A stretch of 64,000 nucleotides of DNA. It comes from a virus. The translations under genes were made by a program, and so were the position numbers. Where the stretch lies: IMG/VR virus record IMGVR_UViG_3300007735_000974, positions 1 to 64,000 of that record. One strand, given 5' to 3'. This document shows, in pieces, positions 2,977 through 39,216 of the stretch. Position 1 is the first letter of the stretch. The number at the start of each line of letters is the position of its first letter. Below the pieces are notes generated by a model that was given only the letters and a program-made list of their open reading frames with translations, did not search any database and was not told where the DNA came from.

Positions 2977-3072
2977 ATGAGTTTCTTGCTTCTCTCAAGA
3001 GCAAGTGGTGCGGATGGGACTCTCTCCCGCCTGGTTTCCAATTTCCAGTCAAAGAATTGGTGGCGTGCATGA
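2977..3072 (+). CDS. tentative 31-aa ORF ending in NWWRA
   Basis: ATG at 2977, stop at 3070-3072. The peptide is Ser/Leu/Arg-rich and ends in SKNWWRA. The DNA is more GC-rich than its neighbours, and it also contains an inverted repeat (CCAATT … AATTGG). It is followed by a terminator. It may be a small peptide gene, or the region may make a small RNA. Low confidence. Confidence 0.3.
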   Translation: MSFLLLSRASGADGTLSRLVSNFQSKNWWRA

Positions 3073-3084
3073 AAAGACCTGAGA

Positions 3085-3111
3085 GGAGAGTTGCATAAAC
3101 TCTCCTTTTTT
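3085..3111 (+). terminator. rho-independent terminator (overlaps the gmd promoter)
   Basis: The stem is GGAGAGTT (3085-3092) with AACTCTCC (3098-3105), loop GCATA, followed by six T. The loop side carries the TTGCAT -35-like box of the promoter that precedes gmd. Confidence 0.8.
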
Positions 3112-3119
3112 GGTATAAT
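3091..3119 (+). promoter_or_regulatory. sigma-70 promoter of the glycan operon
   Basis: TTGCAT (3091-3096), 17 bp, TATAAT (3114-3119). The start of transcription would be near 3126, about 13 bases before the gmd ATG, so the leader is very short. The -35 box lies in the terminator hairpin. Confidence 0.65.
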
Positions 3120-3138
3120 AAAAAAAAGTATTTTTGGT

Positions 3139-4137
3139 ATGAAGACAGCATTAATTACTGGTATTACAGGACAGGACGGTTCCTATCTTGCAGAACTTCT
3201 TTTAAATAAAGGTTATGAAGTTCATGGAATTATTCGTCGTTGTTCTTTAATCAATACTCATCGTATCGACCATATTTACAATAAAATTAAGTTGCACTAT
3301 GGAGACTTAACTGATTCAACAAATTTGGTTAGAGTTATTCAACAAGTTCAACCAGATGAAATTTATAATCTTGGTGCCCAAAGTCATGTAAAGGTTTCTT
3401 TTGAGATGCCTGAATATACAGGTCAAACAGATGCTCTCGGAACTCTACGTGTTCTTGAAGCAGTTCGTTTGCTTGGCATGGAGAATAAGGTTCGCATCTA
3501 TCAGGCATCAACCTCAGAAATGTTTGGATTGGTGCAAGAGGTTCCTCAGAAGGAGACCACACCATTTTATCCTCGTTCTCCTTATGGATGTGCTAAGGTT
3601 TATGGATACTGGATTACAAAGAACTATCGTGAAGCATATGGAATGTATGCTTGTACTGGGATTCTATTCAATCACGAATCCCCCCGTCGAGGTGAAACAT
3701 TTGTAACACGTAAGATTACTAGAGCCTTAAAAGCAATATCCGAAGGTAAGCAAGAAGTTCTTACTCTAGGCAATCTAAATGCAAAACGTGATTGGGGACA
3801 CGCTAGGGACTTTGTAGAAGCAATGTGGTTAATGCTTCAGCAAGATAAATCTGATGATTATGTGGTTGCAACTGGTGTTCAGTATTCTGTTCGTGAGTTT
3901 GTAGAGCAAGCAGCACCATATTTTGGAATGAATATCGTGTGGCAAGGAGAGGGTCTGAATGAGGTTGGTATTGATAGCAATACTGGATTGGTCCGTGTTA
4001 TAATTGATCCTAAATATTTTCGACCCGCTGAAGTAGAGACCTTATTAGGTGATGCCTCTAAAGCAAAAAAGAAATTAGGTTGGGAACCTAAAACCTCTTT
4101 TAAAAAATTAGTTGAGGATATGTGTATTAATGAATAA
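3139..4137 (+). CDS. gmd: GDP-mannose 4,6-dehydratase
   Basis: A 332-aa short-chain dehydrogenase/reductase. The NAD(P)-binding motif [12 protein letters not shown] starts at residue ~8. The catalytic YxxxK is in [10 protein letters not shown], and the Gmd signature [17 protein letters not shown] follows. It converts GDP-mannose to GDP-4-keto-6-deoxymannose, the first step to GDP-L-fucose. The next enzyme, fcl, lies two genes downstream. The start is set by the MKTALITG beginning of the Rossmann fold, just after the promoter. It is the first gene of an operon reaching about 21.6 kb. Its end overlaps the next gene by 8 bases. Confidence 0.95.
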
Positions 4138-31797: not shown

Positions 31798-31945
31798 AAT
31801 GTTAAGAAATGAAACATTTCTTAATCTTGCCCCACCGAGACTAATGGGCAAATAAAATCCGTCTCTCATACCCACACTGGAGGGTGGTGTGGGATATACT
31901 GTAATCGTTCAGTTCCCCCTGAACTTATACCTACCCTTTTAACAA

Positions 31946-33028
31946 ATGACTGCTACAATTGCTTCACGCCGCTCTGGCGAAAATACCTGGGAACAATTCT
32001 GCTCTTGGGTGACTTCTACGAACAACCGCCTTTATGTCGGCTGGTTCGGTGTATTGATGATTCCAACGTTGCTTGCTGCAACCACTTGCTTCATCATCGC
32101 ATTCGTCGGTGCTCCCCCTGTGGACATTGACGGTATTCGTGAACCCGTTGCTGGTTCACTCATGTATGGAAACAACATCATCTCTGGTGCCGTTGTTCCT
32201 TCTTCTAATGCTATCGGTCTTCACTTTTATCCCATTTGGGAAGCTGCTTCCCTGGATGAATGGCTTTACAATGGCGGCCCTTTCCAACTTGTTGTATTCC
32301 ACTTCCTCATTGGCATCTACTGCTATATGGGACGTGAATGGGAACTCTCTTATCGTTTAGGTATGCGTCCTTGGATTATGGTTGCTTACAGCGCACCTGT
32401 TGCTGCTGCATCTGCTGTATTCCTGGTCTATCCTTTCGGTCAAGGTTCTTTCTCTGATGCAATGCCTCTGGGTATCAGTGGCACTTTCAACTACATGCTT
32501 GTGTTCCAGGCAGAACATAACATCCTGATGCACCCCTTCCATATGCTTGGAGTTGCTGGTGTGTTCGGTGGTTCACTGTTCAGTGCTATGCACGGTTCTC
32601 TGGTTACTTCTTCGTTGGTTCGTGAAACCACCGAGAATGAGTCACAGAATTATGGTTACAAGTTCGGTCAAGAAGAAGAGACATACAACATCGTTGCTGC
32701 ACACGGTTATTTTGGACGCCTTATTTTCCAATACGCTTCCTTTAATAACTCACGTTCACTGCACTTCTTCCTTGCTGCTTGGCCCGTTGTAGGCATCTGG
32801 TTCACTGCTCTTGGTGTTTCTACGATGGCTTTTAATTTAAACGGGTGGAATTTTAACCAAAGTATTTTGGACTCACAAGGACGTGTAGTTAACTCTTGGG
32901 CAGATGTCCTCAATCGTGCTGGACTCGGAATGGAAGTTATGCATGAGCGTAATGCCCACAACTTTCCTCTGGACCTTGCTGCGGCAACCAACACTCCTGT
33001 TGCCCTGACTGCACCAAGTATCGGTTGA
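31946..33028 (+). CDS. psbA: photosystem II D1 protein
   Basis: A 360-aa complete D1. It has the usual helices, [15 protein letters not shown] with the His ligands of chlorophyll and iron, and the C-terminal processing site LDLA before AATNTPVA. The position equal to residue 130 is Glu (MGREWEL), the high-light D1 form. No intron interrupts it. Phage D1 replaces photodamaged host D1 during infection. It has a strong promoter, a structured leader and a terminator at 33048. The adjacent endonuclease gene resembles those that protect or spread psbA. Confidence 0.98.
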
Positions 33029-38631: not shown

Positions 38632-38957
38632 TGGGTAAGCATTATCTACTTAACTTGTATGGGTGCTCGTTTGTCCTTTTGGACGACGAGCGTTGTCTTA
38701 TAGATTTATTAGAAAACGCAGCAATTGCAAGTGGCGCTACTGTGATTCAAACTATTTCAAAGAAGTTTGAACCACAAGGAGTTACTGTTATTTGTCTGCT
38801 TTCGGAAAGTCATATCAGTATTCATACATGGCCTGAGGAAGGTAAAGCATCAGTGGATGTCTATACATGTGGAGATTGCAATCCAAAGATTGGATGTGAT
38901 ATAATCATTCAGCAACTCTATGCAACTGATCATACATTGAGTTACATAGAACGGTAA
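38631..38957 (+). CDS. speD: S-adenosylmethionine decarboxylase
   Basis: A 108-aa pyruvoyl enzyme. LSESHISIHTWPE carries the self-cleavage Glu59-Ser60 and the catalytic His. VDVYTCGDCNP has the catalytic Cys. The product, decarboxylated SAM, feeds spermidine synthesis and so leads to methylthioadenosine. It is a common cyanophage metabolic gene. It is 36 bases upstream of the glutamine-riboswitch-like RNA. Confidence 0.95.
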   Translation: MGKHYLLNLYGCSFVLLDDERCLIDLLENAAIASGATVIQTISKKFEPQGVTVICLLSESHISIHTWPEEGKASVDVYTCGDCNPKIGCDIIIQQLYATDHTLSYIER

Positions 38958-38980
38958 CAAATGTTACAAAATTGACTGTC

Positions 38981-38988
38981 TAAATAAA
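38981..38988 (+). promoter_or_regulatory. candidate late promoter (TAAATAAA)
   Basis: TAAATAAA lies just upstream of the riboswitch-like RNA. If used, transcription would begin near 38994, at the first stem of the RNA. It departs from the usual TATAAATA. Confidence 0.4.
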
Positions 38989-38990
38989 TG

Positions 38991-39048
38991 ACGTTCATTC
39001 GCTATTCGCAAATAGCGAACGGAAGTAGGGATACCGAAGGAACGCACC
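38991..39048 (+). ncRNA. glutamine riboswitch-like RNA (Downstream-peptide/glnA motif)
   Basis: P1: CGTTC (38992-38996) pairs with GAACG (39040-39044). P2: TTCGCTATT (38998-39006) pairs with AATAGCGAA (39011-39019), 9 bp with loop CGCA. The core ACGGAAGTAGG (39019-39029) and CCGAAGGAACGC (39034-39045) match the conserved bases of the glnA/Downstream-peptide glutamine aptamers known from cyanobacteria and cyanophages. It precedes a 32-aa gene, as typical for the class. I matched it from memory of the consensus. Confidence 0.8.
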
Positions 39049-39076
39049 AATACCCAAAAAGTAAAGGAGCACTCCA

Positions 39077-39175
39077 ATGAAAATTAAAAACAACTGGCAA
39101 TTAGTTCTTATTAAGAAACAAAAAGAAAAAGAACAACGTAAACATCAAGCAAAACTTGCAATGGCAATGCGTTGA
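39077..39175 (+). CDS. short basic downstream peptide (32 aa)
   Basis: MKIKNNWQLVLIKKQKEKEQ, then RKHQAKLAMAMR. It is very basic and probably helical. AAAGGAG (39063-39069) sits eight bases upstream. It is the only gene after the glutamine-riboswitch-like RNA and is followed by a terminator, so it forms a self-contained unit. Other basic short proteins under such RNAs in cyanobacteria inhibit glutamine synthetase. The same role here is only an inference. Confidence 0.75.
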   Translation: MKIKNNWQLVLIKKQKEKEQRKHQAKLAMAMR

Positions 39176-39180
39176 GTTCT

Positions 39181-39207
39181 GAGAGGGTTGACACCCTCTC
39201 TTTTTTT
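39181..39207 (+). terminator. rho-independent terminator with -35 box as loop
   Basis: GAGAGGG (39181-39187) pairs with CCCTCTC (39194-39200), then T7. The six-base loop is exactly TTGACA, the -35 box of the promoter at 39188. Confidence 0.88.
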
Positions 39208-39216
39208 GTTTATAAT
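39188..39216 (+). promoter_or_regulatory. sigma-70 promoter, perfect consensus
   Basis: TTGACA (39188-39193), 17 bp, TATAAT (39211-39216). It drives the 54-aa gene at 39238 and thyX. The -35 is the loop of the terminator. Confidence 0.85.

Follow-up and report, generated by a model that had tools for sequence, protein, structure and literature searches.

What is a glutamine riboswitch-like RNA doing in front of a very short gene in a phage genome? The question is raised by one locus of IMG/VR virus record IMGVR_UViG_3300007735_000974 (67,883 bp), of which positions 1 to 64,000 were analyzed (this whole stretch of 64,000 nucleotides, nt, is the window). The locus is probably a version, in a cyanophage, of the glutamine circuit of cyanobacteria, in which an NtcA-type box, a type-1 glutamine aptamer and the gene of a 32-amino-acid (aa) peptide follow one another. 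Judged from its gene content, the source of the window is a T4-like cyanophage, because psbA behind a PhotoRC-II RNA, speD, thyX and phoH are present; the gene order around the aptamer agrees with that of Synechococcus phage S-PM2. Glutamine riboswitches have already been reported in cyanophages (PMC9964418, PMC9602691) and in other marine phages (PMC9004378); neither is the element as such new, then, nor is the window the first case. What seems new is the two-input circuit, the families of tiny peptides and the phage platform that pairs with the Shine-Dalgarno (SD) sequence, of which no description was found in the mainly open literature that was searched.

The identity of the RNA comes from a comparison of the whole window with all 4227 families of Rfam 15 (cmscan). 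RF01739 (Glutamine) matches positions 38990-39048 of the plus strand with 52.6 bits (gathering cutoff 35, E 1.1e-8), while RF01704 (Downstream-peptide, type 2) stays below its cutoff. The original prediction had placed a riboswitch-like RNA here and left its class between glnA and Downstream-peptide. Infernal, the check it proposed, confirms the RNA and the glnA assignment with a significant match over the cutoff, and the Downstream-peptide part falls away; the predicted 5-bp closing stem, 9-bp hairpin and core are exact (Table 1). From its sequence, the element is therefore a type-1 glnA RNA only. Downstream-peptide RNA is alike in being a related glutamine aptamer before short open reading frames (ORFs) in marine picocyanobacteria. 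Crystal structures define a G23-C60 linchpin and the residues that contact glutamine (PMC11477058, PMC5393176), and the window aptamer retains the equivalents of G22, G23 and C60 together with all helices.

Covariation points the same way. A pattern scan of IMG/VR gave at least 120 aptamer loci, and 111 distinct viral aptamer sequences among the matches listed were compared with shuffled pairing partners. The first three pairs of P2 are formed in 100, 100 and 96% of them (shuffled 90, 79 and 61%) and the two pairs of P3 in 100% (shuffled 81 and 67%). Within the peptide family of the window, the P3 pairs GG..CC are swapped to CC..GG in relatives, and in some a P1 C-G pair has become G-C, CGUUG..CAACG replacing CGUUC..GAACG. 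The three-helix junction with covarying helices that distinguishes type-1 glutamine riboswitches is thus present, supporting the predicted occurrence of a glutamine riboswitch in a cyanophage, and the window aptamer would be expected to bind glutamine.

The short gene that the original prediction noted behind the aptamer proves to be real. A search by the peptide alone finds its family in 104 viral contigs, and the ratio of nonsynonymous to synonymous polymorphism (pN/pS) is 0.083 over 51 unique ORF cores; such purifying selection means that the ORF is a genuine gene. Its association with the aptamer is close: when viral records were retrieved by the downstream peptide alone, 49 out of 50 had an RF01739 match with E<=0.001, 36 of them over the cutoff. 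The core NW..LI..Q.EKE...AQLAMAMK stands alone in the window, but it is the second gene after a YRG protein in S-PM2 (S-PM2p190/p191) and in loci L034 and L040, and is fused behind a YRG N-terminus in S-CREM1_206 and L057. DUF4278 (PF14105) is matched by a relative with the YRG N-terminus (E 0.05) and by another phage YRG protein (1.1e-7), and not by the window peptide. This domain is known from host proteins whose genes are under a glutamine riboswitch, IF17 being one, and host aptamers mainly precede DUF4278 genes, gifB among them (PMC6316151); in the host loci retrieved, the aptamer lies 5' of DUF4278+IF and short IF7-like proteins. The fusion or tandem arrangement in sister phages may be seen as mirroring host gifB.

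Searches with the peptide gave no match in the PDB, none by tblastn in phage records and only weak ones in PHROGs (phrog_545, E 0.16), a family that a fused relative matches at 4.6e-7. A peptide profile recovers the S-PM2p191, S-CREM1 and DSL-LC03 proteins (the first two were in its seed) and none from 386 cyanobacterial genomes, a search without a positive control and hence weak evidence of absence. Identity with a glutamine synthetase (GS) inactivating factor (IF) was rejected: profiles from 40 host IF proteins against the viral ORFs, the reverse search and hhalign gave nothing significant, and the peptide is therefore not classed as an IF. Our guess, from its sequence, is that it folds as a helix.

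Upstream of the aptamer, a GTA-N8-TAC box lies near a core promoter, the arrangement of an NtcA promoter at the level of sequence. Among the matches listed, the box stands 24-25 nt 5' of P1 in 30 of 121 viral loci, and 27 unique leaders carry it (1.2 expected); the syntenic S-PM2 locus holds the identical 14-mer. The composite GTAN8TAC-N13-TANATA occurs once in the window (0.01 expected) and once in each of the complete isolate genomes S-PM2, S-CREM1 and DSL-LC03, every time at the glutamine aptamer locus. The pattern was taken from viral loci before counting and counts at those loci are not independent; what is informative is that each isolate genome has the composite just once. An IMG/VR scan with box, TANATA and CGTTSA, a pattern free of the aptamer core, returned 97 stretches and 70 unique matches. 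Fifty-three of the 70 run on into the aptamer core, and the other 17, judged by reading, are degenerate aptamer forms in all but 2 cases (L328, L412), about 68 of 70 in total. The small gene that follows, in those cases in which one was called, is of the YRG type in 31, of the helix type in 22 and of another type in 7. The flanks of the box are common to phage and cyanobacterial glutamine-riboswitch loci (AA.tGTAtCAaAtgtTACAAAa and AAc.GTAacaat.gATACAGAa).

If TAAATA is the -10 element, the box is centered at about -32 and overlaps the -35 region. NtcA represses from -30.5 (gifA) and -33.5 (pirA) and activates from near -41.5 (PMC6316151, PMC8092223). By analogy, the box resembles those of the NtcA-repressed gifA and pirA, unlike activated promoters, and is a putative site at which NtcA would bind and repress. 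The palindrome could also be a phage- or sigma-factor-specific promoter element, analogous to T4 middle promoters, in front of a genuine aptamer, so that only glutamine would be sensed. T4 MotA boxes lie at about -32, as does the palindrome, and in many other marine phages the same aptamer is driven by late TATAAATA promoters lacking an NtcA-type box. However, the composite is found once per phage genome and only at the aptamer locus, which argues against a general phage promoter, and the palindrome fits GTAN8TAC and has flanks like those of the boxes that precede glutamine riboswitches in hosts. We consider a purely phage-specific element unlikely. A T4-type late promoter TATAAATA lies about 7 nt 5' of many phage glutamine aptamers (L007, L033, L045, L067 and others), and transcription there would therefore start near P1; it was rejected for the window, whose aptamer it does not precede.

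How would such a circuit act on the peptide? The aptamer has a 5' untranslated region (UTR) location and an expression platform, with the ORF at 39077 and an SD hairpin that is weak in the window. In predicted folds the RNA after P1 can sequester the SD, and the element is thus predicted to be a glutamine-ON translational switch. The bases after P1 complement the SD region in various ways among leaders (CAUCU...AGAUG, CACC...GGGUG, CACUC...GAGUG, CUUUAC...GUAAAG). The pairing probability of the linchpin C is 0.51 in 84 viral leaders and 0.87 in 57 bacterial ones, against 0.20 and 0.16 after shuffling; pairing of the SD GGAG is less distinct from shuffled values (0.61 vs 0.54 viral, 0.82 vs 0.69 bacterial). 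Folding models favor the open-P1 state by 1.55 kcal/mol in the window and by 0 to 3.8 kcal/mol overall, a range that a ligand could overturn.

The ON direction is one we infer, and two departures from it were weighed: glutamine might turn the peptide off, or the riboswitch might act on transcription instead of translation. Either would suit the predicted SD exposure, which in the window is nearly equal between the two states. Nevertheless, both type-1 and type-2 glutamine riboswitches are reported to activate upon glutamine binding (PMC6316151), and the linchpin C takes part in the anti-SD pairing, which therefore competes with the bound state. A terminator was looked for between the aptamer and the ORF and not found. 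Both departures appear improbable.

Control of thyX and the downstream operon instead of the peptide, as speculated for phage Melnitz, is a distinctly remote prospect. A thyX gene (Thy1 family) does lie downstream of the peptide gene, and S-PM2 has td in the same place; however, S-CREM1 combines riboswitch and peptide without an adjacent thyX, and in the window the peptide ORF is followed by a terminator (39181) and by a 12/12 sigma-70-like promoter (39188-39216), on account of which thyX control was rejected. This terminator and the promoter overlapping it allow the genes further downstream, thyX among them, to be transcribed on their own. That the aptamer is a relic which has lost glutamine binding is hardly credible, for although degenerate variants below the Rfam cutoff exist in S-PM2 and its relatives, the window copy keeps its ligand-site and linchpin residues, its helices and its 52.6-bit score, and the helix changes in relatives are compensatory.

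Table 1. Sequence features of the riboswitch-peptide locus (positions in the window)
Feature	Position	Strand	Basis or remark
NtcA-type box GTA-ACAAATGT-TAC	38954..38967	+	direct sequence; overlaps speD stop codon 38955-38957
-10-like box TAAATA (TANATA)	38981..38986	+	exactly 13 nt 3' of NtcA-type box
Type-1 glutamine (glnA) aptamer	38990..39048	+	RF01739 match and covariation
P1 CGUUC/GAACG	38992-38996/39040-39044	+	sequence
P2, 9 bp, loop CGCA	38998-39006/39011-39019	+	sequence
J2/3 CGGAAGUA	39020-39027	+	sequence
P3 GG-GAUA-CC	39028-39035; pairs 39028-39029/39034-39035	+	sequence
GAAG between P3 and P1'	39036-39039	+	sequence
G22/G23-equivalent ligand-site and linchpin residues (GG of CGGAAG)	39021..39022	+	5DDP construct (PMC5393176), linchpin description (PMC11477058)
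C60-equivalent linchpin C	39045	+	5DDP comparison; in free state, predicted pairing with SD region
Putative SD-sequestering hairpin GCaCCaaUAC...GUAaaGGaGC	39044..39070	+	predicted folds; analogous hairpins in unique viral and bacterial leaders
Pairs of SD hairpin	39044-39045/39069-39070, 39047-39048/39066-39067, 39051-39053/39061-39063	+	predicted folds
SD sequence AAAGGAG	39063..39069	+	direct sequence; conserved in relatives
32-aa basic peptide gene, MKIKNNWQLVLIKKQKEKEQRKHQAKLAMAMR (10 K/R, 2 E)	39077..39175	+	ORF with SD; purifying selection
Intrinsic terminator, 8-bp stem then T run	39181..39207	+	sequence; closes riboswitch-peptide unit
12/12 sigma-70 consensus TTGACA-17-TATAAT	39188-39216		ahead of thyX side; -35 inside peptide-gene terminator hairpin

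Taken together, the proposed circuit would work as follows. When 2-oxoglutarate is high and nitrogen poor, NtcA at the box would block transcription, and it would be released when nitrogen is plentiful. The transcript would then start at or just 5' of the aptamer. As long as glutamine is absent, the bases just 3' of P1, with the linchpin C among them, would pair with the SD; glutamine would stabilize P1 via the G23-C60 linchpin, the anti-SD hairpin would open and the basic peptide would be translated. The terminator right after the ORF would restrict this control to the peptide, which may tune the nitrogen metabolism of the host, perhaps by inhibiting GS in the manner of IF17 or PirA or as a partner of PII. 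A complete viral gifB circuit, in which an NtcA-repressible promoter and a glutamine-ON riboswitch direct YRG and helix proteins to retune or inhibit GS or PII when nitrogen is plentiful, is a more tentative proposal that we hold possible with real doubt.

Several observations weigh against the circuit. The SD hairpin of the window is among the weaker ones across leaders: the modeled freedom of GGAG is 0.34 in the ON state and 0.26 otherwise, and a GGA/UCC pairing beside the hairpin may persist. The -32 placement of the box assumes that TAAATA is the -10 box, the transcription start site being predicted. Sullivan et al. take cyanophage NtcA sites as activating (PMC3037559), so the repressing sign of the putative box is our own deduction. 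The peptide has no match in Pfam or NCBIfam, and no homology to IF7/IF17 was detected (the best hmmsearch hit, that of a family member, has E 2.6, and hhalign gives a probability of 0.4%).

Among known systems, the 5' UTR of Synechocystis gifB (RF01739) is alike in aptamer sequence and structure, in an SD-sequestering platform after P1, in the NtcA-type box of its promoter and in a small basic or DUF4278 product. In contrast, the window element is in a phage, and its 32-aa product has no detectable IF homology; the phage box, 24-25 nt 5' of P1, is gifA-like in spacing, whereas cyanobacterial boxes mostly lie at 9-19 nt. The glnA riboswitch of cyanophage S-CREM1 (accessible part of PMC9964418) shares the NtcA box-N13-TAGATA promoter and a product that ends in the NW..LI..Q.EKE stretch known from the window peptide, but its aptamer is a longer variant and its peptide is fused to a YRG N-terminus; neither the accessible part of that paper nor the record annotation names the promoter box or the gene link. 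The speD-td locus of S-PM2 (AJ630128 142258-142995) has the same gene order, the identical 14-bp box and the related peptide S-PM2p191, but its aptamers are degenerate, tandem and unannotated, and the YRG gene p190 precedes the peptide. These tandem aptamers (L320 1154-1260, ~142314-142420) lie below the Rfam cutoff and carry G23->C and C60->G, possibly a swapped linchpin pair. The elements of Melnitz and other pelagimyophages are likewise phage-borne, glnA-type and near thyX, but have a non-cyanobacterial host and are said to control ssrA, with no NtcA box reported (accessible part of PMC9004378).

Other aptamer-bearing loci add observations of their own. A short ORF ending CKIDAKAD* apparently lies inside a glutamine-aptamer-like element at L322 1201-1470 (DSL-LC03), L342, L344, L350, L351, L377 and other IMG/VR loci; the 3' part of the aptamer is resembled by the final codons of this ORF together with its stop (GACGCAAAAGCCGACTGAAGGAACGC). 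A small protein, MTKY...NPFYP, stands under glutamine aptamers in viral loci (L004, L022, L041) and in SAR86/gammaproteobacterial ones (L172, L203); being common to viral contigs and SAR86-type genomes, it suggests that this system also serves phages that infect other hosts. Alphaproteobacterial and gammaproteobacterial genomes also carry type-1 glutamine aptamers (L162, L182, L185, L204, L230, L231), followed by genes that by eye resemble those for ammonium transporter, glutamine synthetase and glutamate synthase. Elsewhere in the window, psbA (31946-33028, named from its sequence) lies immediately 3' of the PhotoRC-II RNA (RF01717, 68.8 bits, 31812-31907), and a wcaG RNA (RF01761, 104.5 bits, 2977-3074) lies 5' of an ORF resembling GDP-mannose dehydratase (3091-4137).

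The case that the phage senses nitrogen status during infection, as originally predicted, is strengthened by the putative NtcA-type box in the same promoter. Two signals, 2-oxoglutarate via NtcA and glutamine via RNA, appear to meet at a single, very small gene, in keeping with the logic of the host gene by which glutamine synthetase is shut down. The circuit also suggests an identity for short ORFs that lie unannotated between speD and td/thyX. How cyanophages read the nitrogen state of their host can thus be put as a precise genetic hypothesis, and because the locus is present in S-PM2, a long-studied laboratory isolate, it is directly testable. If the viral gifB circuit holds, nitrogen status would be a direct two-metabolite input to phage infection.
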